Source: Agromyces sp. S2-1-8 (GTDB taxonomy: Bacteria; Actinomycetota; Actinomycetes; Actinomycetales; Microbacteriaceae). From it: DNA of 64,000 nucleotides. The notes beneath the pieces are model-generated. The model was not told the origin of the DNA. It ran no database searches and saw nothing but the letters and a program-made list of their open reading frames with translations. Of the stretch, positions 1,458 to 62,503 are shown in pieces. Position numbers and translations under genes: made by a program. Location of the stretch: assembly GCF_021129215.1 (NCBI RefSeq), contig NZ_JAJOLP010000001.1, positions 496,001 through 560,000 on the forward strand. The letters run 5' to 3'. Numbering within the stretch: position 1 is the stretch's first letter; each line of letters starts with the position of its first letter.

Positions 1458-4024
1458 CGTGCGGGCTCCTCGAGTGATGCGCGAGCAGGTCGGAACGGGT
1501 GGAAGAGTGAGGCGAGGGACAGCCTCGCGGAAAGTCGGCGTCGAGCGCGAGCAGCCGCGCGGAGCTCGCGCCGTTCGGTGTCGACGATCGCCCACGCCGC
1601 ATCGGCGTCGGAGGCCGACGGCGGGTCGCCGGCGAACACCGCGCGGGCGACCAGCGAGGCGAGCGAGACGGCCGCAGGACGACCGGCCGCGCGGGCGGTG
1701 TCGGCGCGGACGGCGCGCTCGGAGTCGATCACGCCGTGGTCGATGTAGAGGTCGACGAGCTCGTCCCACGCGCCGACGATGCGCACCTCGGGTACCGGGT
1801 CGTTGCGACGCCGTCGCGTGCGCGCCCCCTTCACGACGAACAGCACGATCAGCGGGAGCACGAGGAACAGTGCGGCGGCGACGCCGAGGCCGACCCAGCG
1901 CAGCGTCGCGAACAGCGACGAGCCGAACACCGTGTCGTCCTTCGGCGGCGCCGCGGCGGCGTCGCTCGACTCGCTCTGCGCCGACGGCGGATCGACGGTC
2001 GCGGTGTCCGGCCGATCGGGCGTCGTCGGGTGCTGCGGCAGCTGCTCGCCCTCCTGGATCAGGCTCGGCGCGACCTCGAACTGCGGCGTCGCGTCGACGG
2101 GCACCCAGCCGTCGGTGCCGCTGCTCGACACCTCGGTCCACACCGTGAGCGCACCGCCCCTGCAGACGTCGGTGCAGGTCGCGACCCCCGGCACCTCATC
2201 GGCACCGGGCAGCCGGAACCCGAGCACGACCCGCGAGTCGTAGCCGAGGGCGCGGGCGATGAGCGCGGTCGCGACGGCGAACTGCTCGTCGTCGCCGATC
2301 CCGGCGACGAGGGCCGCGTCGGAGGCCTTCGGACCCGCCAGACGCTGCTGGTCGACGAGTTCGGTGAAGAGCGCCTCGATGCGCGCCTTCGAGTGACCCG
2401 AGTAGCTGGGCAGGAAGGAGTAGCCGCCGCCGAGCTGCCCGATCCAGCCCGCCGCGTCGGGACCGTCGACCGCCGAGTGGCTCAGGTAGCCGCGGGCGCG
2501 GAGGCGCTGCACGAGCTCGGTGAAGCCCGACGCGGAGTTCGGCTGGGCCTGCAGCTCGAGCCACGCCGACAGCGCCGGGTACTCCTCGAGGTCGAGCTGC
2601 GCGCTCGCACCGGGCTCGCCGAGCTGCGCCGCGACGGTGTCGGGCGCCGCGACGAGGTCGTACACGTCGCCCGGCGCGAGCCCTCGCGCGACGCTCGGAG
2701 GCGCGGCCGAGGCATCCGGGATCTTCGCGATGCTGATGGCGGTCGATCCGTCGGCCGACCGGTGGAAGCCGTCGTCGAGCGCCGACTGCCGCGCCCCGCC
2801 GAAGTCGGGCGCGGCACGCAGCCCGAGCGGGGCGGGCACCCAGATGCCCGCGTAGCCGTCGCCGACGGCGACCTCGAACGCGACGTCGCCGGGCGCACGC
2901 ACCGCGGCACGCGGCAACCGGCTGAACCGCGACGCCGCGCCCTCGGTCGCGACGTGGAAGGTCTCGCCGTCGTAGTCCTCCAGGGTCGCCAGCCGCAGGC
3001 GCTGCACGCCCGTGGTGCTGCCGTCGAGTTCGAGCCACGTCTCGTCGATGCGGTCGGCGCCGAACGCGGCGCGGTAGCTCGCGAGCGGGGTGGCGGTCTG
3101 CCGCACGACGACCTCGGGCTCGACCCGGTCGCGGAGCGCCGTGCGGTCGGCGAGCGAGGCGGCCGCGGGCGTCGCGACGGCACCGGCGACGAGCGCCAGC
3201 ACGACGAGCACGCCCGCGAGTCCGCGTCGGCGCCAGGCCGGCCAGCCCGATAGGCCCGCGCGCTGCACGGTGCCCGCGGTCGCCCGGCGCAGTGCGACCG
3301 CCCGGATCGAGCGCGACCGCAGCAGCAGCCAGACCAGCGCGGCGGCGAGTCCCCCGATGCCGACGAGCAGCTCACGGGGGGCGGGCACCGACACGGGCCC
3401 GATCACGAAGGGGTCGCTGAGCGTCGACGACCCGAAGGCGAGGCCGAAGCCCGACATCGCGAGTCCGACGATCACGGCGAGCGGCGAGGTGCGACGGTCG
3501 GGCACGACCAGGAGCGTCGCGACGAGCGTGCCGACGAGCATCACGACCAGGAACGGCACGAGCACCGCCTGGTACTCGCCGAGGGGCAGCGAGAGGGTGA
3601 GCAGCTGCTTCCAGCCGACGACGACGCCGACGAAGCCGTCGCGGATGCCTCGCAGCCAGCTGGGCGCATCGGCCATCGCCGACGGGATCGCGACCGGCAC
3701 GACGACGATCGCGTACGCCGCGGCGGTCGCGAGCACGACGACGATCGCCTTGACGACGCCGTGCAGCGGCAGAGCGCGGGCGAGGGCGGCGAGCCCGAGT
3801 CCCGCGAGGATGGCGACGACGGCGACGACGAGCATGCGCACCGAGGCGTAGACCGGCCAGGCGGCGACGGTCGCGAGCAGGCCGGCGACGACGACGTAGC
3901 CGATGCCGAGCGCGGTTCGCGTCGACTCGCGGTCGCGTGCACGTGACGCCGCCCGGGCGCCGGCCGGCGCCGCGGCGGAGACCGCGGAGGTGGCAGCAGT
4001 GCGGGGGCCGTTCGCGTCGGTCAT
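1454..4024 (-). CDS. TgpA-like membrane protein with degenerate transglutaminase domain
   Basis: The protein has 856 aa and its start is ATGA-coupled to the DUF58 gene. About six transmembrane helices lie in the first ~230 residues, then a further helix, an extracytoplasmic region, a transglutaminase-like domain (~560-650), a C-terminal helix and a basic cytosolic tail. This is the DUF3488/transglutaminase architecture. Active members carry a Cys before the FA-containing helix, a His in an HAWVEV-like strand, and Asp in a DPTP-like motif. Here the equivalents read GDDEQFA, TVWTEV and VDATP, so only the Asp appears kept and the domain is probably non-catalytic. The MoxR-DUF58-transglutaminase order is widely conserved in bacteria; the molecular role is unknown. 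Confidence 0.85.
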   Translation of the reverse strand: MTDANGPRTAATSAVSAAAPAGARAASRARDRESTRTALGIGYVVVAGLLATVAAWPVYASVRMLVVAVVAILAGLGLAALARALPLHGVVKAIVVVLATAAAYAIVVVPVAIPSAMADAPSWLRGIRDGFVGVVVGWKQLLTLSLPLGEYQAVLVPFLVVMLVGTLVATLLVVPDRRTSPLAVIVGLAMSGFGLAFGSSTLSDPFVIGPVSVPAPRELLVGIGGLAAALVWLLLRSRSIRAVALRRATAGTVQRAGLSGWPAWRRRGLAGVLVVLALVAGAVATPAAASLADRTALRDRVEPEVVVRQTATPLASYRAAFGADRIDETWLELDGSTTGVQRLRLATLEDYDGETFHVATEGAASRFSRLPRAAVRAPGDVAFEVAVGDGYAGIWVPAPLGLRAAPDFGGARQSALDDGFHRSADGSTAISIAKIPDASAAPPSVARGLAPGDVYDLVAAPDTVAAQLGEPGASAQLDLEEYPALSAWLELQAQPNSASGFTELVQRLRARGYLSHSAVDGPDAAGWIGQLGGGYSFLPSYSGHSKARIEALFTELVDQQRLAGPKASDAALVAGIGDDEQFAVATALIARALGYDSRVVLGFRLPGADEVPGVATCTDVCRGGALTVWTEVSSSGTDGWVPVDATPQFEVAPSLIQEGEQLPQHPTTPDRPDTATVDPPSAQSESSDAAAAPPKDDTVFGSSLFATLRWVGLGVAAALFLVLPLIVLFVVKGARTRRRRNDPVPEVRIVGAWDELVDLYIDHGVIDSERAVRADTARAAGRPAAVSLASLVARAVFAGDPPSASDADAAWAIVDTERRELRAAARARRRLSARLSLASLFHPFRPARASLEEPAR

Positions 4025-6371: not shown

Positions 6372-6426
6372 GGTGGTGTTCCTCTCGAAGGGCGGTCGGG
6401 GATGTCTCGGGGCTGGTGCTGCGACG

Positions 6427-9400: not shown

Positions 9401-12399
9401 GTCACGGCGGCAGTGAGCACGCCGACTCGCACGCGCCCCTCGCCCTCGGAGCCCGAGGCGTCGCGCACGGTGTACTCGAACGACGGCTGGCCGTCTCCGG
9501 TGCCGTTCTCGGGCGCGGTGTAGACGATCGCGTCGCCCTCCGCCGAGATGGTCGCGATGCCGAGGCCCGCCTTGGGCTGGGCGACGCCGACGAGCACGGT
9601 GCGGTCGCCGTCGGGGTCCATCCCGGTCGAGGGCACGGGGATGCGCACGCTCTGGCCGCTCAGCACGCGGGCGACGAGCGGGTGCGGCTCGGGCGCGCGG
9701 TTGGCTCCGTCGGGCAGCACCGTCACCGTGACGGTCGAGTGGTCGAGGCGCTCGGGCGCCTGCGCGAGCCCGACCGCGTAGCCGAGCTCGTAGGTGCCGG
9801 GCGTCTTGGGCGCGAGGTAGCGCACCTCGTCGCCCGAGGCGAAGGCGAGCTCGCCGTCGGCGCCCGAACTCGACACCTCGGGGTGCACGACGAGCGCCTC
9901 GGCGCGCGGGCTCACGTCGTTGTCGGTCACGGGGATCGAGATGAGCTCGCCGACGCGCATCGTGACCGTGTCGGGCATCGCGATGGGGCTGATTCCCGCC
10001 GAGGGCGCGACGAGGAACACGCTGAGGTCGCCGGTCGCCGTCGCACCGGCACCGTCGGCGACCGTCACCTTCGCCCGGCCGACGAGGCCCGGCTCGCCGT
10101 TGCGGGTCACGCCCGTCACCCGCACCTGCGACTGGGCGACGACGCCGACGCCGAGCTCGGGGCTGCCCGACACCGCGCCGGTGACGACGAGCACGCGACC
10201 GCTCGTGTTCTGCGCCGCGCCGAGCACGTCGACCATCGTGTCCTCGCCCGCACGCACGAACGCCGTCATCGGGGCGAGTGCGACGGGCGCACCGGGAGCT
10301 GCGACCGTGACGCGGATCGTCGCGGTCTGCTCGGCGCGGGTCACCAGGTCCTGCACGGTGAACGTCGCGAGGTAGGCGCCCGGCTTCTCGGCCGAGAGCT
10401 CGACCTCGCCGGCGGCGGCGTTCGGCACGACGACGAGCCCGGCGCCTGCGGCCGCGGCCGTGGGAACGGCGTCGAGCAGTCGCAACGAGCCGGAGCCGCC
10501 GCTCACGTGCTCGGCGATGTCGACGATCGCCGTCTCGCCGGCACCCGCGGTCACCGCGACCGGCGCGACCTCGAGCGAGGCGCTCGTGGTGACGCGCACG
10601 TCGAGCGTGGCCTCGGTCGCCGCGCCGTTCACGTCGGCGACGGTGAGTCGCACCTGCACCTTCTCGGCGGCGGCGTTCGGGTCGGTGTGGCGGATCGCGA
10701 CGCGACCGTCGGCCATCGGCACGACCGTCACCGGTGCGCTCGCGTCGACGGGCTGGGCGTCGGCGAGCACGAACGCGTCGCCCTCTGGGTCGACCCAGCC
10801 GGGCAGCACCGACACGAGCGCCGTGCCGCCGGGCATGAGCTGCGGCTCGGGCCAGGTCTGCAGGCAGTCGTCGACGCCGCACCAGACCGGTGCGGAGTTC
10901 ACGTCGGAGGGCACCACGGTGAGCGTGACCGTCACGGGCGCCGAGCTCGCCGACCCGTCGGTCACCGCGTAGGTGAACGTCGTCGACCCCGACTCGGCGC
11001 GCACCCGCACGGTCGGCGTCTGGTCGTTCGAGGTGAGCGCGAGCTCGCCGAAGGCGGGGTCGGCGAAGCCGCCCGTGATCGACGCGGGGTCGACCGTGAG
11101 CACGTCCTTCGCGTTGGGGTCGTGGTCGTTGTAGAGCACGGGGAGCTCGACCTGCTGGCCCGACCGCACGCCGAAGCTGTCGGCCACGGCGACCGGCGGC
11201 TCCTGGCGGGCGAGGTCCTCGACCTCCTCAGTGCCGACCCGGTCCTCGATCTCGTCGTCGAGCTCCCATTGCTCGAGCGGCACCACGCGGCCGTCGGGCA
11301 CCGTCCAGACGATGCCCGACGAGGTCTCGTTGAGCACGGCTCGGTCGCCGTTGCCGCGAAGCACGGGGGTGAGCGACTGCGGTCCCTCGCCGGCGGCCTC
11401 GCCCTCGGGCACCTCGAGCGGCACCGTCTCGCCGCCGCTCGACGTCCACACGGCCCCGCCGTCGGTCGAGAGCCAGGCCGCCACGAGCTCGTCGCCCACG
11501 AGGATCGGGTGGGCGGGCGCCCCGCTCGCCTCGACCACGCGATCGGCGTCGCCGCCGTCGAGCGGCAGCTCGACGAGGCCGGCCGAGTCGGCGACGTGCA
11601 CGGATGCCTCGGGGCCGGAGCCCTGCTGCAGGCGCGCGTCGGGCGCCACGTCGAGGGCGACCGGCGCGTCGCGCCCCGACAGCCAGACGCGTCCGTCGGC
11701 GGGGTCGAGCATGACCCAGCGTTCGCCGAGCACGGTCAGCTCGAGGGACGCGTCGGCCGCGGGCGGCTCGGGCACCCCCATCTCGCCGCCGGTGAACTCG
11801 CCCGTCGACGCGTCGTAGAGCCGAACGGCCTCCTCGCGGGCCGAGTACATCGCGATCAGTCCCGCCGACGACACGCCGACGGCGGTCGCGGCGTACGTCT
11901 CGTCGCCTTCGCCGTCGCCTCCGTCGTCGCTGCGAGCCTCGGCGTAGGGGTCGACCGGGAAGGCGTCGTCGCCGTCGATGCGCCCCGCGTGCACGGTACC
12001 GGTGTCGGTGCGGTAGGCGACCCAGTCGCCCGCCGTGACGACGTCGCGCGTTCCGGTCGGCGTGGGCACCGAACCGCCGCCGTCCTCAGCGACGAGGTCG
12101 ACGGGTTCGGCGGGGTCGATCGCCCAGCGCTGCCGCAGGCCCTGGCTGTAGATCGCGGCCGTCGAGCCCGACTGCACGACGGTGCTCGGGTCGTCGACGT
12201 CGCGTACGAGGTCGATCTCGGCGAGGTCGGTGTTGACGCGCGCGTACTGGCCGGCGTCGCGCGTCACCCAGATCGAGGTCTCGAGTTGGGGCACCTCCTG
12301 CGCCTCGTAGCCGTTCGCCGTGACCGCGAGCGTGACGACGGTCGCGACCGCGGCGATCCCCGCGATCGAGGCGATGATCGCGCCCCGGCGGCCCGCCAT
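6427..12399 (-). CDS. giant membrane-anchored Ig-like/Fn3 repeat protein
   Basis: The protein has 1990 aa. The ATG at 12399 overlaps the kinase stop as TGATG. A single helix at residues ~7-28 anchors it, and the rest is predicted extracellular. Residues ~40-400 look like a beta-rich propeller-type module. Many Ig-like domains follow, recognised by recurring VTVTVLP/VNSAPV-type strand ends and DVDGD-like turns. A fibronectin type III-like domain lies near the C-terminus, with LTPGERHRFAARAVNSVG. The tail is Pro-Thr rich and no LPxTG sorting signal is seen. Position and domains match the Fn3 member of bifidobacterial PFNA/fas clusters. A role in adhesion or envelope sensing is inferred. Confidence 0.85.
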   Translation of the reverse strand: MAGRRGAIIASIAGIAAVATVVTLAVTANGYEAQEVPQLETSIWVTRDAGQYARVNTDLAEIDLVRDVDDPSTVVQSGSTAAIYSQGLRQRWAIDPAEPVDLVAEDGGGSVPTPTGTRDVVTAGDWVAYRTDTGTVHAGRIDGDDAFPVDPYAEARSDDGGDGEGDETYAATAVGVSSAGLIAMYSAREEAVRLYDASTGEFTGGEMGVPEPPAADASLELTVLGERWVMLDPADGRVWLSGRDAPVALDVAPDARLQQGSGPEASVHVADSAGLVELPLDGGDADRVVEASGAPAHPILVGDELVAAWLSTDGGAVWTSSGGETVPLEVPEGEAAGEGPQSLTPVLRGNGDRAVLNETSSGIVWTVPDGRVVPLEQWELDDEIEDRVGTEEVEDLARQEPPVAVADSFGVRSGQQVELPVLYNDHDPNAKDVLTVDPASITGGFADPAFGELALTSNDQTPTVRVRAESGSTTFTYAVTDGSASSAPVTVTLTVVPSDVNSAPVWCGVDDCLQTWPEPQLMPGGTALVSVLPGWVDPEGDAFVLADAQPVDASAPVTVVPMADGRVAIRHTDPNAAAEKVQVRLTVADVNGAATEATLDVRVTTSASLEVAPVAVTAGAGETAIVDIAEHVSGGSGSLRLLDAVPTAAAAGAGLVVVPNAAAGEVELSAEKPGAYLATFTVQDLVTRAEQTATIRVTVAAPGAPVALAPMTAFVRAGEDTMVDVLGAAQNTSGRVLVVTGAVSGSPELGVGVVAQSQVRVTGVTRNGEPGLVGRAKVTVADGAGATATGDLSVFLVAPSAGISPIAMPDTVTMRVGELISIPVTDNDVSPRAEALVVHPEVSSSGADGELAFASGDEVRYLAPKTPGTYELGYAVGLAQAPERLDHSTVTVTVLPDGANRAPEPHPLVARVLSGQSVRIPVPSTGMDPDGDRTVLVGVAQPKAGLGIATISAEGDAIVYTAPENGTGDGQPSFEYTVRDASGSEGEGRVRVGVLTAAVTDAAPVTFSDYVRVQQSAASPVTVEPAGNDLDPAQGELELVKVVPNAPEGSPEHDRLAALIDPSTDPAAGRVVLHPGDVAGSNSYRYTVRSERTSSTAEGLIVVKVTEGESPDAPVVADTVVTARSRADLPEKGLDVIAGHVTWASGDLAALELELWGKAPSGFRVEGHRIIGPLPDGGALVPFRVHGADRAGRDAEAFGFLVVPATDDLRVQLRGDLDDLEVKEDAKVSFDVRELLDLAPGDSAEVGTDGYTVQRANATCRPVAGGGAEYAAGRDAPWSDHCLVPVRLDGQKSWSWVGVPIAIVPRDPQAILSAVSRTVAPGASESVALYDEMTTWEGGREGDRAKLDYSISYSGSAFTVEQKGEGVTFEAHADARPGTRETATVSVSAFGGLTSAITLVVGQAPPDTPRGAVFTQQCSVGEGASCTIAVVGVPGEYDPFSGKTGAGLKLAGLGSGANSCQVASIRAVDDRSVTVTWPTGKNAFGGECVVPFSVTDAQGRSGDGRLTVDLLGLPQAPASVSTADYTANSVTLEVSLGEALRAHPEVIGVEILEGERAVRADCKPGAPGVWWCTVGGLTPGERHRFAARAVNSVGVSTATSPVETWSYKAPVISAASASPVYREGTTGPNTGVVELRISAERDARSFRVQETGQVIDRRGATTTTELTLVPGPQMLTLVPISIYEPPTGRGGNEGGNAVVPITAAGSPVLNPNGIAAAAASNTSILVTGVGLDANHSARASELVYLAWQRGDARCWADGDGGLQTSGAEVVSSSSTIAGLQDSQRYYIKACASNGYGVVETETVRADTIHDVDPPSGTLTYTVATAPAGGGDHFEYRLEQAPVVEADNGFTPYFYMYGEWREDFVLETWGTPGDVKVRTCKRSWFDTKCSGDVAIVAKTAPTEVTVDFATGCIPSQDEIGVTVSDAARGSYEIRNWRQTDPTNAPLAVAYDLVFTGAFIALDPIPRTGELCPPPEPTPTPTPTPTPEAPAP

Positions 12400-13538
12400 C
12401 AGATCGCCCCCGACAGGACGAGCCCGGCCGCGGCCAGCCCGATGACGACGACGGCCGAACCGACGCCGATGAGCAGGGGCTTCCACACGCCGCCGCGCGC
12501 CCTGGCGGGTGCGAGGCCGCCGTCGTCGACGCGCGGTCCTGAAGGGCGCGCCGCGGCGACGGCGGCCGCCCGGCCCGCCCGACGAGAGTCGGGGTTCACG
12601 GTGGTGACGACGGGGCCGCGCTCCGAGGCATCCGCGAAATCGAGCGGCGCCGCAGCCGCCCACTCGGGCGACGCGACCTCGAGGCTCGTGGGCGCGACGC
12701 CCAGCTCGTACTGGGCCCAACGCAGCGCCTCGCCGAACTCGGCCATCGTGCCGTAGCGACGAGCCGGGTCGCGCTGCATCGCCGTCGAGAGCACGGTGTC
12801 GATGCGGGCCGGCACCCCGCGCGGGGCGAGCGGCGTGAACTTCGCGCCGAGCACGCGGCGCGAGAGCTGATCGACGGTGTTGCGGCTGCGATCGGGCAGC
12901 TCGAACGGGCTGTGGCCGGCGAGCAGCGTGTAGAGCGTGGCACCGAGGCTCCAGATCTCGGTCGCGACGGTGCCGGTGGTGCGTTCGCCGAGCACCTCGG
13001 GGGCGCTCCACGGGATCGACATCGCGAACGTGTCGCCCGTGCCGTCGTCGCTGATCGCGCCCGCGATGCCGAAGTCGGCGAGCACCGGGGCGCCCAGCGA
13101 GTTGACGAGCAGGTTCGAGGGCTTGATGTCGCGGTGCAGCAGGCCCGATCGGTGCGCGGTCTCGAGGGCGCCGGCCATGCGCACGCCGATGTCGAGCACC
13201 TCGCCGACGGGCATCGGGCCGCGCTTCGAGCGGGCGCCGAGCGATTCGGGGCAGTACTCCATGACGAAGTACGGGCGGCCGTCGGCCGAGATCGAGGCCT
13301 GGTAGATCGTGACGATCGAGGGGTGGGCGCTCAGCCGGGCCATCGCGTCGGCCTCGACCGTGAACGAGCGGCGGGCGTCGGGGTCGACGACGTCGACGAG
13401 CAGCACCTTGACGGCGGTGACGCGGCGGGGCAGGTCCTGCTCGTAGAGGAACACGTCGGCGAAGCCCCCGGTGCCGAGGGGTCGCACGTAGCTGTACCCG
13501 GAGAGCACGGGTGGTGCCGAGGGCAGGCGTTTCGCCAC
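12399..13538 (-). CDS. membrane-anchored Ser/Thr protein kinase
   Basis: The protein has 379 aa, with a GTG start preceded by AGGAGG. Kinase motifs are complete: Gly-rich loop GTGGFADV (22-29), ATP lysine K44, catalytic loop HRDIKPSN (135-142), DFG (155-157) and SAPE (178-181). The kinase domain ends near residue 280. A low-complexity linker leads to one C-terminal helix (~353-377), so the kinase faces the cytoplasm. No PASTA domains follow, unlike PknB. It heads the kinase/Fn3/MoxR/DUF58/transglutaminase/FHA operon, as Pkb2 does in bifidobacteria. Its substrates probably include operon partners such as the FHA protein, which is an inference. Confidence 0.93.
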   Translation of the reverse strand: MAKRLPSAPPVLSGYSYVRPLGTGGFADVFLYEQDLPRRVTAVKVLLVDVVDPDARRSFTVEADAMARLSAHPSIVTIYQASISADGRPYFVMEYCPESLGARSKRGPMPVGEVLDIGVRMAGALETAHRSGLLHRDIKPSNLLVNSLGAPVLADFGIAGAISDDGTGDTFAMSIPWSAPEVLGERTTGTVATEIWSLGATLYTLLAGHSPFELPDRSRNTVDQLSRRVLGAKFTPLAPRGVPARIDTVLSTAMQRDPARRYGTMAEFGEALRWAQYELGVAPTSLEVASPEWAAAAPLDFADASERGPVVTTVNPDSRRAGRAAAVAAARPSGPRVDDGGLAPARARGGVWKPLLIGVGSAVVVIGLAAAGLVLSGAI

Positions 13539-13634
13539 GAGCTGCGCCCCTCCTGCCAGCTGTTCGGGTCACCGGCGGGGCCGGTGGGGTTCGGGTGACG
13601 GACGCCTCGCCGAGACCGCCGACGGCGACGAACA

Positions 13635-13676
13635 TCCCCCGGACGGCGGCGCGGCAGGGCCGCGGCATCCGGGGGA
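13635..13676 (-). terminator. hairpin downstream of small gene, upstream of kinase
   Basis: Arms tcccccgga (13635-13643) and tccggggga (13668-13676) pair perfectly over 9 bp. An inner gcggc/gccgc stem lies within the loop. The hairpin sits between the stop of the 126-aa gene and the kinase start, both on minus. There is no clear T-tract, so it may act as a high-GC terminator or only as an insulating structure. Confidence 0.55.
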
Positions 13677-14256: not shown

Positions 14257-15594
14257 CTACCCGACCGACGGAACGGCGCGTGCCGCAGCCCGAGCCGCGG
14301 CCGGCAGCGCCTCGACGATGCGCCCGATCGCGACGTCGTCATGGGCCGCGGTCACGAACCAGGCCTCGAACACGCTCGGCGGCAGCGAGACGCCGGCGTC
14401 GAGCATCGCGTGGAAGAACGGGGCGTAGCGCCACGACTCCTGCCGTTGCACGGTCGCGTAGTCGCGCACCTCGTCGCCCGCGACGTCCTCGCCGAACACG
14501 AAGCTGAAGAGGTTGCCGGCGCGCTGCACCCGGTGGGCGACACCCTCCGCGGCGAGCGCGGCGGTCACGGCCTCGCTGATCGCCTCGGCCGCGGCATCCA
14601 GCCTCGCGTACACCGCGGCGTCGGCGGCGCGCAGCGTCGCGATGCCCGCGGCGACCGCGACCGGGTTCCCCGAGAGCGTGCCGGCCTGGTAGACGGGGCC
14701 GAGCGGGGCGAGTCGCTGCATGATCTCGGCGCGGCCGCCGAGGGCCGCGACCGGCATGCCGCCGCCGATGACCTTGCCGAACGTCATGAGGTCGGGCGTG
14801 TAGGCGGATGCCTCGTGCCGCGCCTCGACGCCCCACCAGCCGGCCTCCGACACGCGGAATCCGGTGAGCACCTCGTCGCTGATGACGAGCGCGCCGTTGG
14901 CGTGGGCGAGGTCGACGAGCGCGCGGTTGAAGCCCGGCGCGGGCGGCACGACGCCCATGTTGGCGGCCGCCGCCTCGACGATGACGGCGGCGATGCGGTC
15001 GCCGTGCTCGGCGAACACGGCGCGCAGCGCGTCGAGGTCGTTGTAGGGCACGACGAGGGTGAGCGCGGCGATCTCGGCGGGAACGCCGGCCGAGCCGGGC
15101 AGGGCGAACGTCGCGAGGCCCGACCCCGCCTCGGCGAGGAGGCCGTCGGAGTGGCCGTGGTAGTGCCCGGCGAACTTCACGAGCAGGTCGCGGCCGGTGA
15201 ATCCCCGGGCGAGGCGGATGGCGCTCATCGTCGCCTCGGTGCCCGTCGACACGAGCCGCAGCTGCTCGACCGGTGCGACTCGGCCCTCGACGAGTTCGGC
15301 CAGCTCGGTCTCGGCGGGGGTCGACGAGCCGAACGAGAGGCCTCGCGCCGCGGCATCCTGCACCGCTTGCACGACCCGCGGGTCGGCGTGGCCCAGGATC
15401 GCGGGCCCCCATCCGGCGACCAGGTCGACGTACTCGCGGCCCTCGACGTCGGTGAGGTAGGCGCCCTTCGCCGAGACGAAGAAGCGCGGGGTGCCGCCGA
15501 CCGAGCGGAACGCGCGCACGGGCGAATTCACCCCGCCCGGGATCGCGGCCTGCGCGCGGGCGAACAGTTCGGCGTTCGTCGGCGTCGCGGTCAC
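14257..15594 (-). CDS. hemL: glutamate-1-semialdehyde 2,1-aminomutase
   Basis: The protein has 445 aa. It is a PLP enzyme converting glutamate-1-semialdehyde to 5-aminolevulinate, the second step of the C5 heme route. It opens with [26 protein letters not shown], typical of the family. The PLP-lysine region is [17 protein letters not shown], and the cofactor-contacting Asp is in [11 protein letters not shown]. The GTG start at 15594 overlaps the hemB stop (GTGA), so the two are translationally coupled. HemA, its channeling partner, is encoded about 20 kb away at 35999. Confidence 0.96.
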
Positions 15595-16589
15595 GCGGCG
15601 TCCCCCTTCCGGATCCACTCGGCCAGTTCGACGGCCCAGTACGTGAGCACGGCGTCGGCGCCGGCGCGCTTGATCGAGCGCACCGACTCGACGACGGCGC
15701 GCTTGCGGTCGATCCAGCCGTGCGCGGCGGCGGCCTCGATCATCGCGTACTCGCCCGACACCTGGTACGCCCAGACGGGCACCTCGCTCGCGGCGGCGAC
15801 GTCGGCGAGCACGTCGAGGTAGCCGCCCGCGGGCTTCACCATGACGACGTCGGCGCCCTCGTCGATGTCGATCATCGCCTCGCGCAGGCCCTCGCGGCGG
15901 TTGCCGGGGTCGAGCTGGTAGCTGCGGCGGTCGCCCTCGAGCGTCGACTCGACCGCGTCGCGGAACGGACCGTAGAACGCGCTCGCGTACTTCGCCGAGT
16001 AGGCGAGGATCGCGACGTCCTGCCGGCCGGCGTCGTCGAGCGCCTCGCGCACGGCGGCGACCTGGCCGTCCATCATGCCGCTGAGGCCCAGCAGCTCGGA
16101 GCCGGCACGCGCCTGGGCGAGCGCCATGGCGGTGTAGCGCTCGAGGGTCGCGTCGTTGTCGACACGACCGCGCTCGTCGAGCACGCCGCAGTGCCCGTGG
16201 TCGGTGAACTCGTCGAGGCAGAGGTCGGTCTGCACGACCAGGCGGCCGGCGGATGCCTCGGCGGCGACGCGCGTCGCGACGTTGAGGATGCCGTCGGGGT
16301 CGGTCGCGCCCGAGCCGCGCGCGTCGCGCACCGCGGGCACGCCGAAGAGCATCACCCCGCCGAGCCCGGCGGCCGCGGCCTCGTCGACCGCCTGCGGCAG
16401 GCTCTCGAGCGAGTGCTGCACGACCCCCGGCATCGAGCCGATCGGCACGGGGGCCGCCGCGCCCTCGCGCACGAAGATCGGCAGCACGAGGTCGGCGGGG
16501 TCGAGGCGGGTCTCGGAGACGAGGCGGCGCAGGGCCGGGGTCTCGCGGAGCCGGCGCGGTCGGACGCGGGGAAGGGGCGCGGAACTCAC
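15591..16589 (-). CDS. hemB: delta-aminolevulinic acid dehydratase (porphobilinogen synthase)
   Basis: The protein has 332 aa. It condenses two 5-aminolevulinates to porphobilinogen. The Schiff-base lysines are in [14 protein letters not shown] and [10 protein letters not shown]. The metal loop reads [14 protein letters not shown]: two of the three zinc cysteines of the E. coli type are present and the middle one is Asp, a pattern I recall as common in actinobacteria. The GTG start lies 6 nt after TAGGCT, suggesting a leaderless transcript independent of the upstream DMT gene. Confidence 0.96.
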
Positions 16590-16739: not shown

Positions 16740-17735
16740 CTATCCGCCGACTCGCGCGCGCGGACGACGCGGCATCGCGAAGATCCAGGCGCCGACGAGC
16801 ACGAGGGCAGTGCCGACGGCGTGCCAGACGGTGAAGGGCTCGCCGAGGAGCCACACGGCGAACACGATCGTGATGACCGGCGAGACGTTGCCGATGACAG
16901 CCGTGCGCTCCGAGCCGATCATGCCGATCGCCGCCGAGATGCAGTACGCGGGCAGCACGGTCGAGACGAGCCCGATCGCGATGACGAGCGGCCACGCCTC
17001 GCCGGGAACCGCGAGGTCGGTGATCGGGTGCGTCACCGCGAAGTGCACGACGATCGCGACGCCCGCCCCGCTCATCGCGATCGAGGTGAAGAGCCCAGCC
17101 CCCATGCGGTCGATGAGGGGCTTCGCGAGGATCTGGTACACGGCGTACGCGATCGCCGCTCCGAGCACGAGGGTCGCGCCGAGCAGCACGTGGTCGCCCG
17201 CGAGGCTCAGGTCGCGCCAGAAGATGACGGCGATGCCGAGGTAGCTGAGCACCTGCCCGACGATCATCACGCGGGTGACCTTGCGGCGGAAGAACACGAC
17301 GCCGAACAGCACGACGAAGAACGGATAGAGCAGCAGGATCAGCCGGTCGAGCTGCGCCGAGATGTACTCGAGGGCGGTGAAGTCGAGGAGGCTCGCGAGG
17401 TAGTAGCCGATGGCCCCCACGCCGGCGGCCTGCAGCGCCGAGGCGACGTCGAGCACCCGCTCCCCCGTCGGCGTGCGGTTGCCCCGGTGGCGGAGCACGC
17501 CGACGAGGCCGACCGTCGCGAACACCGGCACGGCGACGATCATTCGCCACGTCAGCGTGGTGAGCGAGTCGACGCCCTCGGCGAGCGCGAGCTTGACGAC
17601 GATGCCCTTGGTCGCGAACGCGGCGGCGCCGATGACCGCCAGCACGACCCCGAGGGTGCCGACGACGGGCACCCAGCGGCGGCGCGGCCGCGTCTCGAGC
17701 GACGTGGATGCCTCGGGCGAGTCGGTCCGCGTCAT
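16740..17735 (-). CDS. DMT superfamily (EamA) transporter
   Basis: The protein has 331 aa and about ten predicted transmembrane helices in two EamA halves, such as [14 protein letters not shown] near the N-terminus and [32 protein letters not shown] near the C-terminus. The substrate cannot be read from sequence. The gene lies 46 bp behind hemD on the same strand, ahead of a 13-bp inverted repeat and hemB. It may therefore be cotranscribed with chdC-cpfC-hemC-hemD. A link to export or import of tetrapyrrole precursors is speculative. Confidence 0.85.
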
Positions 17736-38518: not shown

Positions 38519-38756
38519 GAGGGGCCTCCTTACCTGAGACATCCTCACCCAGGATGCCGCGCGGAGTGCCCGTCCGGATCAGGGCGGGCCCGGAGGCCGG
38601 TGCCTCGGAACCGGCGCCGGATCTCGTGCATGCTCCGGCGATTCGACCGCGCAGGATCGACGACGGCTCGGCCGTCGGCGCCCGCAGGGGCGTACGGTAC
38701 GGGGCCGCTGCCCCGGTCCGGCATGAGCACGAGCGGTCACGCGGGCGCCGAGCCGC

Positions 38757-45320: not shown

Positions 45321-47096
45321 TCAGTCGAAGGTCTCGATGTACTCCTGCTCGGGTCCGAGCTCGGCACGCTCGCGCAGCTCGACGGCGTCGCCGAGTCGCT
45401 CGAGCTCGAGCACGGCGATCGTGTTCTCGCCCGCCCGCAGCAGCGGCGCGGGCACGTAGTAGGTCTGCTGGGGACCGATCTCCCAGTAGCGGCCCAGCAG
45501 GAATCCGTTCACCCACACGAACCCCTTGCCGAAGCCGGGGAACGCGAGGAACGCATCGGCCGGCTCGTCGACGGCGAGGTTCGCCGTCGTCAGCCCGGCC
45601 AGCTCGCGCGCGCCCCACTCGTCGAGCGGCAGCGGTCGCGCCGCCCAGCGCTGCACGAGCCGTCGGTCGAGCTGCACGCCGCCGAGGATGCCCTTGCCCT
45701 CGCCGAGCAGCGGACCGTAGTTGATGCGACCCTGGTTCTCGACGACGAGCTCGAGCACGACGGGCCGCCCCTCCCCCGCGAGTCGCACGCCCGATGCGGC
45801 CTGCTCGGCGTCGAGCACCGCGACCCGCACGCCGTCGACGAACACGAGGGCGCGGTCGCGCAGCCCCCGGATCGTGAGCAGTGCCCCGCCCGACGGCACG
45901 ACCGGACGGGCCTCGTAGAGCACGAGGCCCGCGTCGAGGCCGAGCTCCTCGAACGTGGGCGGGTTCGCCGCGCACACCGGCTCGCCGGCCGCGCGCAGCA
46001 CGTCGAGCAGCTCGCGACCCGGCCGCACGGGCAGCGTCGCCGCCGGCAGCACGGGCGGGGTCGGGGATGCCTCGGGCGGCGTCAGCCCCGAGGCATCCTG
46101 CAGCACGTCGCGGATGCGACAGAACTTCTCGGTCAGCGCGCCGTTCTCGGCGATCGGGGCGTGCGAGTCGTAGCTCGTCTGCGTCGGCTGCAGGCGCACG
46201 CCGTCGTGGTTCGCGCCCGACCAGAGGCCGAAGTTCGTGCCGCCGTGCGCCATGTAGAGGCTCAGCGAACCGCCCTCGGCGATGATGTCGGCGACGACGC
46301 CGGCCGCGCCCTCGGGCGTCCGCACGTGGTGGGGGTCGCCCCAGTGGTCGAACCAGCCGTTCCAGAGCTCGGCGCACATGAACGGCTCGTCGGCGCGGCG
46401 CTCGCGCAGCATCGACGCCGCCTGCGCGGCGCGCGAGCCGAACGTCGCGGTCGCGAGCACGCCCGGCACGCTCCCGCCGTCCTGCATGAGCTCGGTCGGG
46501 CCGTCGGCCGTGTAGACGAGCTCGGTGACGCCGCCCGCGACCAGACGCTCGTGCAGCCACGCGAGGTAGTCGGCGTCGTCGCCGTAGCTGCCGAACTCGT
46601 TCTCGAGCTGCACGGCGACGATCGGGCCGCCGTGGCTCGCCTGCAGCGGCACGAGCCGCGGCAGCAGCTCGTCGAACCACGCGTCGACGGCGTCGAGGTA
46701 GGCTGGGTCGCTCGAACGCAGGCGCAGGCCCGGCGTGCCCGAGAGCCAGGCGGGAAACCCGCCGTTGTCCCACTCGGCGCAGATGTACGGCCCGGGCCGC
46801 ACGATCGCGTCGAGGCCGACCTCGGCGGCCAGCTCGAGGAAGCGCTCGAGATCGCGCCAGCCCGAGAAGTCGACCTCGCCGCGGCGGCGCTCGTGGAAGT
46901 TCCACGCGACGTAGGTGTCGACGGTGTTGAGGCCGAGCGCGACCATGCGCTCGAGGCGGTCGCGCCACTGCGCCGGGTGCACCCGGAAGTAGTGCAGCGA
47001 GCCCGAGAGGACGCGGTGCGGACGGCCGCCGCGCAGGAAGGCGCCCGCCTCGTACGTGAGCAGCGCGGTCGCGGCGCGCTGTTGCGTGTCGGTCAC
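45321..47096 (-). CDS. cytoplasmic beta-galactosidase, GH35
   Basis: The protein has 591 aa. GH35 motifs are LSGSLHYFRVHPAQWRDRL, RPGPYICAEWDNGGFP, acid/base E167 in QLENEFGSYG and nucleophile E243 in CAELWNGWFDHWG. The C-terminal beta domains include YVPAPLLRAGENTIAVLELE. No signal peptide is seen, so it acts on imported sugar. It begins at GTG 47096, overlapping the permease stop (GTGA). In this operon its natural substrate is plausibly Gal-beta-1,3-GalNAc released by GH101; that is an inference. Confidence 0.93.
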   Translation of the reverse strand: MTDTQQRAATALLTYEAGAFLRGGRPHRVLSGSLHYFRVHPAQWRDRLERMVALGLNTVDTYVAWNFHERRRGEVDFSGWRDLERFLELAAEVGLDAIVRPGPYICAEWDNGGFPAWLSGTPGLRLRSSDPAYLDAVDAWFDELLPRLVPLQASHGGPIVAVQLENEFGSYGDDADYLAWLHERLVAGGVTELVYTADGPTELMQDGGSVPGVLATATFGSRAAQAASMLRERRADEPFMCAELWNGWFDHWGDPHHVRTPEGAAGVVADIIAEGGSLSLYMAHGGTNFGLWSGANHDGVRLQPTQTSYDSHAPIAENGALTEKFCRIRDVLQDASGLTPPEASPTPPVLPAATLPVRPGRELLDVLRAAGEPVCAANPPTFEELGLDAGLVLYEARPVVPSGGALLTIRGLRDRALVFVDGVRVAVLDAEQAASGVRLAGEGRPVVLELVVENQGRINYGPLLGEGKGILGGVQLDRRLVQRWAARPLPLDEWGARELAGLTTANLAVDEPADAFLAFPGFGKGFVWVNGFLLGRYWEIGPQQTYYVPAPLLRAGENTIAVLELERLGDAVELRERAELGPEQEYIETFD

Positions 47097-51769: not shown

Positions 51770-52480
51770 TCAGCCCCGAGGCATCCATTCACGCCGCAGG
51801 ATCGCGTAGAGCTCGCTGTCCTGCCAGCCGTCGTCCTCGAGGATCTCCTCGAGCATCGTGCCCTCGAGGCGCATGCCGAGCCGGCGGCACAGCGCGGCCG
51901 AGGCGGTGTTGCGCGCATCGAGGTGGGCGAACACGCGGTGCGCACCGATGACCTCGAAGGTGAAGCGCAGCACCTCGGCGGCGGCCTCGCGCGCGAGCCC
52001 GCGACCCTGGAACGCAGGATGCAGCACCCAGCCGATCTCGACCTGCGCGCTCTCGATGCTGCCGACCCGCAGCATCACGTCGCCCACCACGCGGTCGCGA
52101 GGGGCGGATGCCTCGGCGCCGGCGCCGCCCGCGACCGGCACGCCGACGGACGGCTCGCCATGCAGCACCATCGCGAAGTGGGTCGCGTCGCCGTCGGCGG
52201 CGAGCACCCGCATGCCGGCGCGCTTCAGCGTGTGCACGTGCGCGTCCTCGCGGCTGCGCGGCGGCCACGGGATGTAGCGCAGCACCTCGGGCAGGCGCTG
52301 GTACTCCCAGACGTCGTCGCTGTCATCGGGCGAGATCGGGCGCAGCGTCATGCGGTCGGTCCGCAGCGGGGCACCCTCGATCGACGCGATGTCGAACGGG
52401 AACGCTGCGCCGGTCGCCGCGGCCGCGCCGGTCGCCGCGGTCGCGGTCGTGCCGCCGACGGGCTCGGCCGAGGCGGGCAC
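51770..52480 (-). CDS. GNAT N-acetyltransferase (RimJ-like)
   Basis: The protein is ~236 aa from GTG 52480. The first ~35 residues are Ala/Gly-rich and the true start could be further in. The core has LRTDRMTLRPISPDDSDDVWEYQ, VEIGWVLHPAFQGRGLAREAAAEVL (acetyl-CoA loop) and LDARNTASAALCRRLGMRLEG. An ~20-residue Gly/Ala/Pro insert lies between the strands near VGVPVAGGAGAEASAPRD. It follows glyS by 7 bp on the same strand and is probably cotranscribed. Confidence 0.82.
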   Translation of the reverse strand: MPASAEPVGGTTATAATGAAAATGAAFPFDIASIEGAPLRTDRMTLRPISPDDSDDVWEYQRLPEVLRYIPWPPRSREDAHVHTLKRAGMRVLAADGDATHFAMVLHGEPSVGVPVAGGAGAEASAPRDRVVGDVMLRVGSIESAQVEIGWVLHPAFQGRGLAREAAAEVLRFTFEVIGAHRVFAHLDARNTASAALCRRLGMRLEGTMLEEILEDDGWQDSELYAILRREWMPRG

Positions 52481-53963: not shown

Positions 53964-54371
53964 ATGCCCCAGCTGCCCGACCTCCTCGTCTCCGCGATCG
54001 CGCTCGTGCGCGACCGTCGGGTGCTCATGGTCACCGCCCGTGATCGCGAGGTCTACTACATGCCCGGCGGCAAGATCGATGCGGGCGAGACGGCCGCCGA
54101 AGCGGCCGCGCGCGAGGCGTTCGAAGAGGTCGCGCTCGAGCTCGACCCCGCCTCCCTCGACGAGTTGTTCGAGGTCGTCACCCAGGCGCACGGCGAGCCC
54201 GACGGCCGGCTCGTGCGCATGCGGGTCTTCCAGACCGACACGGATGCCTCGCCGGCGCCCTCCGCCGAGGTCGGCAGCCTGCACTGGGTGACCACGGCCG
54301 ACGCCGACCGCTGCCCGCCCGCCGGGCGCGAGGTGCTCGCCCGGCTCGCTGCGACCGGCCTGATCGACTGA
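53964..54371 (+). CDS. NUDIX hydrolase
   Basis: The protein has 135 aa. The Nudix box reads [21 protein letters not shown], preceded by YYMPG. That matches GX5EX7REUXEEXG closely except for the last glycine position, which is Ala. Members cleave nucleoside diphosphates linked to other groups; the substrate is not predictable. It is divergent from glyS. Confidence 0.9.
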
Positions 54372-57476: not shown

Positions 57477-57529
57477 CGCAGGCCGCGGCGCGCTCGAGAT
57501 GTTCGGATACTCGGACTTCGGATCTGCGA

Positions 57530-59584
57530 CTACCAGATGGTCACCCGCTCGGCAGGGTCGAGCCAGAGGGCGTCCTCTTCAGTCACTCCGAAGCCAGTGT
57601 AGAACTCATCGATGTTGCGGACGATCTGGTTGCACCGGAACTCGTTCGGCGAGTGGGGATCGATCGCGAGCAGGCGCACCACCTCCTCGTCGCGGCCCTT
57701 CATCTGCCAGGCCTGCGCCCACGACAGGAAGAACCGCTGCACCGCCGAGTACCCGTCGATCTCGGGAGCCCCGTCGACGTCGCCGCCCTGCGAGAGCACG
57801 TACGCCTTCCACGCGATCGCGAGCCCGCCGAGGTCGCCGATGTTCTCGCCGATCGTGAGCGCGCCGTTCACGTGCGGCGCCCCGTTCGCCTCGGCCCCGC
57901 CCTGGGTGGATGCCTCGCCCGCGGCACCCTCGGACCCGGGCGCGCCGTCGGCGAGCTGGGCGGGAACGAGCGCGTCGTACTGCTCGATGAGCGCCTTCGT
58001 GCGCTCCTCGAAGGCGGCGCGGTCGTCGGCCGTCCACCAGTCGGTGAGGCGCCCGTCGCCGTCGTACTTCGACCCCTGGTCGTCGAAGCCGTGCCCGATC
58101 TCGTGTCCGATCACCGCGCCGATCGCGCCGTAGTTCGCCGCGGCGTCGCGGCCGGCGTCGAAGAACGGGAACTGCAGGATCGCCGCAGGGAACACGATCT
58201 CGTTGAAGCCGGGGTTGTAGTACGCGTTGATCGTCTGCGGGGTCATGAACCATTCGTCGCGGTCGATCGGCCCGCCGACCTTGCCGAGCTCGCGCTTGAA
58301 CTCGAACTCGGCCGTCGCGCGCACGTTCCCGACGAGGTCGTCGGTGATCTCGAGGGTCGAGTAGTCGCGCCACTTCACGGGGTAGCCGATCTTCGGCGTG
58401 AACTTCGCGAGCTTGTCGAGCGCCTTCTTCTTGGTGGCCTTCCCCATCCAGTCGAGGCCCTCGATCGACTCGCGGTAGGCCGCGACGAGGTTCGCGACGA
58501 GCTCGTCCATCGCCTCCTTCGCCGCGGGCGGGAAGTGCCGTTCGACGTAGATGCGGCCGACCGCCTCGCCCATGGCGCCCTCGACGAGCGAGACCCCGCG
58601 CTTCCACCGCTCGCGCATCTGCGGCGTGCCGGTGAGCGTGCGGCCGTAGAAGTCGAAGTTGGCCTCGACGAGGTCGCTCGAGAGGTAGGCCGCGCTCGAG
58701 CGCACGACCTGCCAGGCCAGCCAGTCGCGCCAGGCGGGCAGCCGGTCCTCGGTCAGCAGCCGGCCGAGGCCCTGCACGAACGACGGCTGCCGCACGACGA
58801 GCTCGTCGAAGGCGCCCGACGGAACGCCCATCGCGTCGCGCCAGACCGACAGCCCCGAACCCGCGGGCTCGGCGCCGGGGAACGCCAGCGCCGAGGCATC
58901 CGCCCAGCTCTTCAGGTTGTAGGTCTTCTCGCTGTCGCGCGAGTCGACGTTGTTCCAGTGCACCCTCGCGATCTCGGTCTCGAGCTCGAACACGCGGGCC
59001 GCCCGCTCGGCGGCAGCGTCGAACTGCGCGAGCCGCAGCATCCGCTCGAGGTGCTCGCGGTAGGCCGCGCGGATCGGCTCGAAGCGGTCTTCGCGGAAGT
59101 AGCTCTCGTCGGGCAGGCCGATGCCGCCCTGCTCGACGAAGACGAGATAGCGCTCGGGGTCGCCCGGATCGTTGTCGACGTAGAGCTGCGCGAAGCCCGA
59201 CACGCCCTGCCGCTCGAGCCGGCCGAGGGTCTCGACGAAACTGCCGATCGAGTTCACGAGCGACACCTCGAGCAGCTGGCCGGCGATCGGCGTGACCCCG
59301 AGCAGCTCGGCCCGGTCCTCGTTCATGAAGCTCGCGTAGAGGTCGCCCACCTTGCGGGCCTCGGTGCCGGGCTCGGCCTGCTGCGACTCCTCGATGATCT
59401 CGCGCACGGCCTCCTCGGCCTCCTCGTGCAGCACGTAGAAGGAGCCGTAGCGCGCCTTGTCGGCGGGGATGTCGGTGCGTTCGATCCACCTGCCGTTGAC
59501 GTGCCGGAACAGGTCGTCCTGCGGGCGCACGCCCGGGTCGAGCTCGTCAAGCGTGATTCCGGAGGGCAGCGCGACGTCGGTCAT
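57530..59584 (-). CDS. M13 family (neprilysin-like) zinc metallopeptidase
   Basis: The protein is 684 aa from ATG 59584, which sits 7 nt after TAGGCT and is preferred to a TTG two codons upstream. The zinc motif HEIGH is at ~494-498 and the third ligand is E580 in ENIGDLGGLAIAWKAY. The substrate-binding INAYYNPGFNEIVFPAAILQFPFF is also conserved. The N-terminal half matches the PepO-type helical domain (HVNGRWIERTDIPADKARYGSF). No signal peptide is present, so it is an intracellular oligopeptidase as usual in actinobacteria. Confidence 0.94.
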   Translation of the reverse strand: MTDVALPSGITLDELDPGVRPQDDLFRHVNGRWIERTDIPADKARYGSFYVLHEEAEEAVREIIEESQQAEPGTEARKVGDLYASFMNEDRAELLGVTPIAGQLLEVSLVNSIGSFVETLGRLERQGVSGFAQLYVDNDPGDPERYLVFVEQGGIGLPDESYFREDRFEPIRAAYREHLERMLRLAQFDAAAERAARVFELETEIARVHWNNVDSRDSEKTYNLKSWADASALAFPGAEPAGSGLSVWRDAMGVPSGAFDELVVRQPSFVQGLGRLLTEDRLPAWRDWLAWQVVRSSAAYLSSDLVEANFDFYGRTLTGTPQMRERWKRGVSLVEGAMGEAVGRIYVERHFPPAAKEAMDELVANLVAAYRESIEGLDWMGKATKKKALDKLAKFTPKIGYPVKWRDYSTLEITDDLVGNVRATAEFEFKRELGKVGGPIDRDEWFMTPQTINAYYNPGFNEIVFPAAILQFPFFDAGRDAAANYGAIGAVIGHEIGHGFDDQGSKYDGDGRLTDWWTADDRAAFEERTKALIEQYDALVPAQLADGAPGSEGAAGEASTQGGAEANGAPHVNGALTIGENIGDLGGLAIAWKAYVLSQGGDVDGAPEIDGYSAVQRFFLSWAQAWQMKGRDEEVVRLLAIDPHSPNEFRCNQIVRNIDEFYTGFGVTEEDALWLDPAERVTIW

Positions 59585-59591
59585 GCGCAAC

Positions 59592-59621: not shown

Positions 59622-59631
59622 GAGGATCGAC

Positions 59632-60003
59632 ATGAAGACGCTGCTGAACATCATCTGGCTCGTGCTCTCGGGCATCTGGCTGTTCCTGTCGTACGTGCTC
59701 GCGGGCGTCGTGATGTGCATCCTGATCGTGACGATCCCGTGGGGCATCGCGTCGTTCCGCATCGCGATGTACGCCCTGTGGCCGTTCGGCCGCACGGTCG
59801 TGCAGAAGCCGACCTCGGGCGCGTGGTCGTTCATCGGCAACGTGATCTGGGTCATCCTCGCCGGCTGGTGGCTCGCGCTCGAGCACATCGTCACGGGCCT
59901 GCTGCTCTGCATCACGATCATCGGAATCCCGCTCGGCATCGCGAACTTCAAGCTCGTGCCCGTCTCGCTCGCGCCCCTCGGCAAGGAGATCGTCGACGCC
60001 TGA
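59632..60003 (+). CDS. YccF domain membrane protein
   Basis: The protein has 123 aa. Two copies of a YccF-like hydrophobic repeat are seen: IIWLVLSGIWLFLSYVLAG...IPWGIASFRIAMYALWPFGR and VIWVILAGWWLALEHIVTG...IGIPLGIANFKLVPVSLAPLGK. The repeats suggest an internally duplicated inner-membrane protein. Function unknown. A GAGGA lies close to the ATG. Confidence 0.9.
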   Translation: MKTLLNIIWLVLSGIWLFLSYVLAGVVMCILIVTIPWGIASFRIAMYALWPFGRTVVQKPTSGAWSFIGNVIWVILAGWWLALEHIVTGLLLCITIIGIPLGIANFKLVPVSLAPLGKEIVDA

Positions 60004-60128
60004 GCCGTCGGCTCGCCCCCGCTCGCCCGACCCTCCTGACGGGGATGACGCGATCCAGGTCCATTCCGTTCGCCGACGGCCTCGGCCAAGATGGGGCTGG
60101 GCGCCGGGTCGGCGCGGGGCGGAGGGGC

Positions 60129-61859: not shown

Positions 61860-62503
61860 TCGCCGAAGACGAGACCCTGCTGCGGCAGGGGCTGCGACTG
61901 CTGCTCGAGGAGGGCGGGTTCGAGGTCGTCGCCGCGGCGGGCGATGCCGACGAGCTGCTCGGCGCCGTCGACGCGCACGGGCCCGATCTCGTGATCACCG
62001 ACATCCGGATGCCGCCGTCGCACAGCGACGAGGGCCTGCGAGCGGCCCTCCGCATCCGGAGCGAGCGCCCCGACATCGCGATCGTCGTGCTCTCGCAGTA
62101 CGTGCAGCGGCGCTACGCGCTCGAGCTGCTCGGGGGCGAGGCATCCAGGATCGGGTACCTGCTGAAGCAGCGGATCGCCGATGTCGGCGCGTTCCGCGAC
62201 GACCTCCGCCGCGTCGCCGAGGGCGGCACGGCGCTCGACCCCGAGGTGGTCGCGGTGCTCATCTCGCGCGCCGGGCGCGGCGGCGGCGACGTGCGGCGAC
62301 TCACGCGCCGCCAGCGCGAGGTGCTCGCCTACATGGCGGAAGGTCGGAGCAACGCCTGGATCGGGCAACGGCTCGTGCTCACCGAGAAGGCGATCGTGCA
62401 GCACACCTCGGGCATCTACGACGCGCTCGGGCTGCCCGTCACGGCCGACGATCACCGCCGGGTGCTCGCGGTGATCCGGTACCTCGACGGCGCGGCCGAC
62501 TGA
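61847..62503 (+). CDS. NarL/LuxR-type response regulator
   Basis: The protein is 218 aa from GTG 61847, which keeps the RVVIAEDE first strand intact; GTG 61856 would remove it. The receiver has the acidic pair ED, phospho-acceptor Asp in LVITDIRMPP and Lys in YLLKQRI. The C-terminal LuxR-type helix-turn-helix is LTRRQREVLAYMAEGRSNAWIGQRLVLTEKAIVQHTSGIYDALGL. It overlaps the kinase gene by 13 bp and is its cognate partner. Confidence 0.94.
   Translation: MRVVIAEDETLLRQGLRLLLEEGGFEVVAAAGDADELLGAVDAHGPDLVITDIRMPPSHSDEGLRAALRIRSERPDIAIVVLSQYVQRRYALELLGGEASRIGYLLKQRIADVGAFRDDLRRVAEGGTALDPEVVAVLISRAGRGGGDVRRLTRRQREVLAYMAEGRSNAWIGQRLVLTEKAIVQHTSGIYDALGLPVTADDHRRVLAVIRYLDGAAD

Follow-up and report, generated by a model that had tools for sequence, protein, structure and literature searches.

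An abundant ten-base word in Agromyces and its dialects in Microbacteriaceae: a probable DNA uptake signal

Introduction

What keeps a short DNA word in place when it is scattered through unrelated genes and read in several frames? This question is raised by a 64,000-nucleotide stretch of Agromyces sp. S2-1-8 (contig NZ_JAJOLP010000001.1, positions 496,001 to 560,000), referred to below as the window, in which the 9-mer GGATGCCTC recurs. An initial annotation had reported about 20 copies and offered three candidate roles: a Chi-like recombination signal, a polarity signal of the FtsK-orienting polar sequence (KOPS) type, or a methylated motif. A DNA uptake sequence, which fits better than any of these, is missing from that list. 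In this study, the word was followed through the whole genome (G000; 4,099,562 bases in two contigs, C1 and the plasmid C2) and through related genomes. We propose that its extended form, the 10-mer GGATGCCTCG, is probably an uptake signal like the DNA uptake sequences (DUS) and uptake signal sequences (USS) of Proteobacteria, kept by biased uptake and recombination, and one dialect among Microbacteriaceae words that share a GGAT(GCC) core.

Results

The repeated unit is a 10-mer maintained at the DNA level

Exact searching of the window found 21 copies of GGATGCCTC (13 on the plus and 8 on the minus strand), where 100 dinucleotide shuffles gave an expectation of 0.88 and a maximum of 3. The order of the initial count and its estimate of about one chance copy were right, with one site overlooked and another misplaced (Table 1). 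The core GGATGCC is commoner still, as had been stated, with 29 + 23 copies in the window. All 21 copies of the 9-mer extend to GGATGCCTCG, and all lie within genes predicted by our own gene caller, being translated differently between genes (Asp-Ala-Ser, Glu-Ala-Ser, Arg-Gly-Ile and Met-Pro-Arg were all seen).

Genome-wide, the 9-mer occurs 1,519 times (753 + 766) and its reversed-pattern control 3 + 0 times; for the 10-mer the corresponding numbers are 1,386 (688 + 698, about one per 3 kb) and 0 + 0. The reversed control is probably biased low because it contains TAG, and model-based tests were therefore preferred. In 464 kb, 169 copies of the 10-mer were observed against 6.8 expected under an order-4 Markov model. 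In the same 464 kb, G follows 92% of 184 nine-mers and positions outside the 10-mer carry little information, and the true unit is the 10-mer.

To separate DNA-level from protein-level signals, genes were called with our own codon model in an 824-kb chromosomal sample consisting of the window and 38 of 39 C1 stretches (L025 was omitted as it overlaps L018), and their codons were shuffled synonymously 100 times, preserving every protein and the codon usage. Of its 282 ten-mers, 207 lie in coding sequence and 73 between genes, and 2 straddle a gene boundary. The coding copies number 86 + 121, compared with 2.3 + 2.8 after shuffling (maxima 6 and 7), so that the codon-aware comparison that the initial annotation had called for gives 207 versus 5.1. 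The word also forces rare codons, as had been suspected: Asp-Ala-Ser is spelled GATGCCTCG in 80 of 183 cases even though GAT makes up 10.8% of Asp codons, and Glu-Ala-Ser is spelled GAGGCATCC in 97 of 174 even though GCA and TCC make up 5.7% of Ala and 14.6% of Ser codons. The signal is thus at the DNA rather than the protein level. The initial observation is confirmed as real, and it was understated.

The word is densest between genes, forms oriented inverted pairs and is scarce on the plasmid

Intergenic DNA makes up 11% of the sample and holds 73 of the 282 sites, the word being about 2.9 times denser there. Intergenic regions flanked by tandem genes hold 1.08 copies per kb, those of convergent pairs 0.76 and those of divergent pairs 0.56. 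Of the 45 sites in tandem regions, 31 are closer to the upstream stop codon. When neighbouring pairs at most 80 bases apart were collected (n = 15), 12 had the arrangement GGATGCCTCG-loop-CGAGGCATCC, 2 the reverse arrangement and 1 a direct one, and 8 of the 12 were intergenic. With up to one mismatch allowed in the partner, 20 of the 73 intergenic sites have a partner in the preferred orientation and 4 in the other. Terminators made of inverted uptake sequences have been described for Neisseria and Pasteurellaceae (PMC1852404, PMC3630211).

The plasmid contig C2 (83,623 bases) matches conjugation genes of actinobacterial plasmids, and the 10 of its proteins that were scanned include a type IV secretion system coupling protein and ParA. 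It carries 2 ten-mers and 5 nine-mers, where about 28 ten-mers would be expected at the chromosomal density.

Related words form dialects in the Microbacteriaceae

In a count over 248 genomes of the order, totals of hundreds to 1,734 for the 9-mer were confined to the genus of the window; a second genus of the family has 35 to 308 copies and a third about 100. Across 398 genomes from 85 genera of the family, the abundance of the 10-mer differs by genus, and a related word, GGATGCCG, reaches up to 4,831 copies (G097), with nearly equal forward and reverse counts where it is abundant. In the genomes from outside the family (148 of the 159 counted), GGATGCCG stays at or below about 267 per Mb (the highest being G068, with 534 copies in 2.0 Mb), a low range shared by motif-poor family members; in G038 it stands at about 1,320 per Mb.

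Counting k-mers in fetched stretches of relatives yielded further enriched words: GGATGCCTC together with GGATGTCTC in G238, GGATGCCGC in G054, CGGATGCCG in G083 and G216, GGATGACC in G299, GGATGCCC in G550, ACGGATGC in G300, GCGGATCG in G298 and the palindrome CGGATCCG in G069. These k-mer counts leave out G287 (1,088 bases), and G125 (19,663 bases) and G479 (7,853 bases) are too short for a dialect call. The same dialect picture emerged when 48 genomes were surveyed through one to five stretches apiece. Across the Microbacteriaceae, the GGAT(GCC) core thus recurs in forms specific to a genus or species. Ten genome/word combinations were tested in nine relatives, and each count exceeded all 40 of its synonymous shuffles. 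Enrichment between genes is clear in G000, G238, G216 and G282, and slight in G054.

One of the ten tests concerned G282 (genus g120; L100-L103), where an unlike word, GGAGGCGCG, occurs 45 times in 80 kb against 5.8 expected, beats the synonymous shuffles and is denser between genes; here an unrelated word may be filling the same role. The palindrome CGGATCCG is enriched in both G069 (L092-L095, L118) and G532 (L116), lineages that stand apart in a ComEC tree, perhaps through an independent shift or through an effect of restriction-modification. As this tree lacks G304 (no tblastn match), contains a cut G069 sequence and leaves 15 forks open, only its well-supported pairs were used; in one of these, G054 with G578 (100/100), the GGATGCCG form is common to both members. 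A separate set in G054 (L049-L052), consisting of TACAGCCCTA and overlapping 10-mers with 11-13 copies in 80 kb, is probably a local repeat family.

Words turn over at aligned positions

Fourteen Agromyces loci around comEC were aligned, and at 54 alignment positions, some of them in gapped and uninformative parts, at least one species carries one of four word forms. Of 1,047 ungapped comparisons, 25.4% preserve the identical 9-mer and 30.4% any of the listed forms; flanking 9-mers are preserved in 14.5% of 7,370 comparisons. Inside comEC itself, GGATGCCTC is present in five genomes, and the other nine carry GGCTGCCTG (five genomes) or close variants; the change is silent because Gly-Cys-Leu is encoded in all fourteen. 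Another position has the TC form in G000 and humatus and the GC form in G603, lapidis and italicus. At such positions, the aligned sequences look as if words arise and change by point mutation rather than by insertion.

Competence and Tad pilus genes are present

The comEA gene lies directly upstream of the adjacent comEC, and both reading frames are open. ComEA has SLBB and helix-hairpin-helix domains above the Pfam cut-offs, and ComEC matches PF03772 with 139.1 bits (cut-off 23). Its identity to the ComEC proteins of eight named Agromyces genomes, the only ones confirmed in that scan, is 60-68%, and it groups among them in the ComEC tree, which places the window in Agromyces or very close to it. 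A Tad locus at about 3.463-3.467 Mb of C1 includes tadA (TIGR03819, 395.5 bits; cut-off 373.15), a T2SSF protein, a DUF4244 pilin-like protein, a minor pilin TadE_Rv3655c (50.2; cut-off 40) and an Rv3654c-like TadE protein (67.6; cut-off 50.95). In Micrococcus luteus, another actinobacterium, which has comEA and comEC and no comG cluster, Flp pili are needed for transformation (PMC6370729).

Five T2SSE ATPase matches were found in G000, the best at 7.5e-66 and one of them typed as TadA, while PilB-like matches of relatives reach about 1e-140. A PilB-type ATPase was considered as the uptake machine and rejected: with 25 candidates scored per genome, none of the motif-rich G000, G021, G054, G038, G097 and G083 has a match of PilB-like strength, and the motif-poor G401, G280, G251 and G392 do. 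Type IVa pili are therefore not a correlate of the word.

Sites and other features in the window

The window sites are listed in Table 1 together with four minor forms.

Table 1. Positions of the word and its minor forms in the window.
Element	Position	Strand	Location	Residues	Remark
GGATGCCTC(G)	2709..2717	-	coding	PDAS	
GGATGCCTC(G)	3643..3651	+	coding	RGIR	gene on - strand
GGATGCCTC(G)	11602..11610	+	coding	PEAS	
GGATGCCTC(G)	12625..12633	-	coding	ADAS	initially placed at 12626
GGATGCCTC(G)	14806..14814	+	coding	HEAS	
GGATGCCTC(G)	16251..16259	+	coding	AEAS	
GGATGCCTC(G)	17706..17714	+	coding	PEAS	
GGATGCCTC(G)	20530..20538	+	coding	RGIP	
GGATGCCTC(G)	25037..25045	+	coding	GMPR	
GGATGCCTC(G)	25873..25881	-	coding	RGIR	absent from initial list
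GGATGCCTC(G)	34466..34474	+	coding	DEAS	
GGATGCCTC(G)	41807..41815	+	coding	VEAS	
GGATGCCTC(G)	43284..43292	-	coding	ADAS	
GGATGCCTC(G)	46065..46073	+	coding	PEAS	inverted pair, arm 1
GGATGCCTC(G)	46090..46098	-	coding	QDAS	arm 2 of inverted pair GGATGCCTCG-N14-CGAGGCATCC
GGATGCCTC(G)	51778..51786	-	coding	WMPR	
GGATGCCTC(G)	52106..52114	+	coding	AEAS	
GGATGCCTC(G)	54242..54250	+	coding	TDAS	
GGATGCCTC(G)	57908..57916	+	coding	GEAS	
GGATGCCTC(G)	58893..58901	-	coding	ADAS	
GGATGCCTC(G)	62138..62146	-	coding	GEAS	
Minor form GGATGTCTC	6400..6408	+	intergenic		
Minor form GGATGCCGC	13662..13670	-	intergenic		
Minor form GGATGTCTC	38536..38544	-	intergenic		
Minor form GGATGCCGC	38552..38560	+	intergenic		adjoins GGATGTCTC at 38536..38544

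A second word, CGGGGGAG/CTCCCCCG, shows a mild excess genome-wide and in some of the relatives; in the window it is represented on the minus strand at 19343, 36183 and 56677 (CGGGGGAGT). In the 824-kb sample, 88 of 107 copies of CTCCCCCG are within genes, and seven minus-strand repeats of it at L009:9747-10077, with an exact spacing of 55 bases, form a short tandem array. A very large gene occupies 6427-12399 on the minus strand of the window. The longer frame 6427-13668 scores 37.5 bits, short of the cut-off of 90, against a tandem-95 repeat model, and our guess is that the product of the large gene is a surface protein.

Discussion

The anatomy of GGATGCCTCG would be explained by the following series of events. 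A putative DNA receptor on a Tad/Flp-type pilus would prefer word-bearing DNA; retraction of the pilus would pass the DNA to ComEA and then to ComEC; and a single strand would recombine into the chromosome. With preferential uptake of word-bearing fragments, the word would build up at every position where the encoded protein can accommodate it, in either orientation, evenly across the replication strands and most densely in intergenic DNA, where inverted pairs may find a second use as hairpins. A change of the receptor would let the word drift to a new dialect. A molecular-drive model of biased uptake of this kind has been put forward (PMC7811141). Competence, uptake, the receptor and the drive are what we infer from these genomes, and membership of the word in the DUS/USS class is not proven.

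Several observations weigh against the uptake-signal interpretation. ComEA (82.8 bits) and ComEC (149.4 bits) are under the NCBIfam cut-offs for comEA (152.35) and ComEC_Rec2 (190.05). Among relatives picked for either high or low motif counts, ComEC and T2SSE ATPases were found in 64 of 64, motif-rich and motif-poor alike; the presence of either one carries no information as a correlate of motif abundance, and because they are there irrespective of the motif, they indicate capacity, not linkage. The receptor is itself a postulate, and no uptake experiment with the word was found in the literature searched. Copies on C2, though few, are slightly above its own order-2 expectation (2 ten-mers versus 0.5; 5 nine-mers versus 1.1), and four C1 segments with a GC content below 0.69 are not clearly depleted (3, 9, 6 and 5 copies per 20 kb). 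Spacing of the sites is Poisson-like (variance/mean 0.99), and even spacing was set aside as uninformative. Among the relatives, no clear GGAT word was seen in several genera, such as g101, g130, g141, g109 and the small-genome g95 and g144, in the little sequence covered for them. Intergenic enrichment is absent or weak in G083, G304, G550, G299 and G069. Close inverted pairs are few in the relatives, and those of G083 (1 versus 3) and G304 (1 versus 4) favour the opposite orientation. Finally, the palindromic word of G069 would suit restriction-modification.

This last point leads to the alternative that survives best, which we nevertheless consider unlikely: a methylation- or repair-linked word, comparable to the HIP1 word of cyanobacteria, in which a methyltransferase or repair enzyme recognises GGAT words, selection or mutation bias maintains them and the dialects track its specificity. 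HIP1, which is palindromic, is repeated many times throughout the genome and differs between relatives. GGATGCCTCG shares the genome-wide repetition and the variation among relatives, but it is not palindromic. Variation by species around a short core, the equal use of both strands and the palindrome CGGATCCG of G069 and G532 would all fit an enzyme of this sort. However, most of the dialects seen are non-palindromic, genomes tend to avoid methylation targets instead of enriching them, and such an enzyme alone does not predict hairpin pairs with a preferred orientation. It does not predict the scarcity on C2 either, since any methyltransferase would be in the same cell as the plasmid.

An abundant protein-binding or RNA-level element with no tie to uptake, such as a nucleoid protein site or a terminator stem, appears quite improbable. 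The inverted pairs do resemble terminator stems, and the bias of tandem-region sites towards the upstream stop codon points the same way. Most sites nevertheless lie inside genes, in both orientations, and an inverted partner is found at only a minority of them; terminator stems are therefore not the main cause, and a nucleoid protein site alone would not predict oriented pairs.

Very improbable, in our judgement, is a Chi-like signal for an enzyme of the RecBCD, AddAB or AdnAB type, one of the roles suggested initially. Chi-type words differ from species to species, and an abundant, genome-specific word of similar length would be in keeping with this. With the origin of replication placed at dnaA (C1:689951-691321) and the terminus opposite, however, the leading strand holds 131 of the 282 sites (p = 0.26); shifting the terminus by 0.4 Mb either way gives 127 and 132, and the best count over any origin position is 152, compared with a null 95% point of 165. 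Neither the intergenic density nor the inverted pairs would be expected of Chi. Since Chi and KOPS are both polar signals and the word is without strand polarity, both are disfavoured. For a KOPS-type or architecture-imparting sequence (AIMS) pointing towards the terminus, we see practically no chance: chromosomal abundance with few plasmid copies would suit it, but the leading and lagging strands share the sites evenly and the two orientations are intermixed along the chromosome in 20-kb samples. An origin of the word in frequent Asp-Ala-Ser and Glu-Ala-Ser linkers combined with codon bias, which the frame of 173 of the 207 coding sites might suggest, is refuted by the collapse to 5.1 copies when proteins and codon usage are kept, and by the 73 intergenic sites.

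The preferred reading, an uptake signal, can be compared with known systems. Uptake sequences have been described for two proteobacterial families and are thought to have evolved independently (PMC12616744). Like the Neisseriaceae DUS (PMC3630211), GGATGCCTCG is a word of about ten bases with species dialects around a conserved core and with inverted pairs; the DUS has thousands of copies, and its inverted pairs are associated with terminators. The word is unrelated, and the host is an actinobacterium whose best T2SSE match is below PilB-like strength. The Pasteurellaceae USS is likewise a short word with generally at least 1,000 copies, comparatively rare in coding regions and in DNA acquired recently, and explained by biased uptake and recombination (PMC7811141, PMC12616744 and PMC1852404). 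It too is unrelated to GGATGCCTCG, whose flanks carry little information and have no adjoining AT tracts. For the machinery, the comparison is with the Tad/Flp-dependent natural transformation of Micrococcus luteus (PMC4322843, PMC6370729), whose comEA, comEC and Flp/TadE pilin genes have counterparts of their kind here; the main text of PMC4322843 uses none of the terms 'uptake sequence', 'uptake signal' or 'sequence-specific'.

Among the matches listed by a literature search that reached few subscription papers, neither an uptake sequence nor this word as a genome motif has been reported for the Microbacteriaceae, and no such uptake-signal system for Actinobacteria. We lean towards the view that the Microbacteriaceae, which are monoderm, have a third, independent uptake-signal system, in which a family-wide set of GGAT dialects would be read by a minor pilin of a Tad/Flp pilus, extending self-recognition beyond Proteobacteria and type IVa pili.

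If this is true, uptake signals would have a third lineage, Gram-positive and with many dialects, including apparent shifts and losses, in which the co-evolution of receptor and word and the sufficiency of molecular drive would become directly testable. The right word on donor DNA might also help to transform environmental members of the family.

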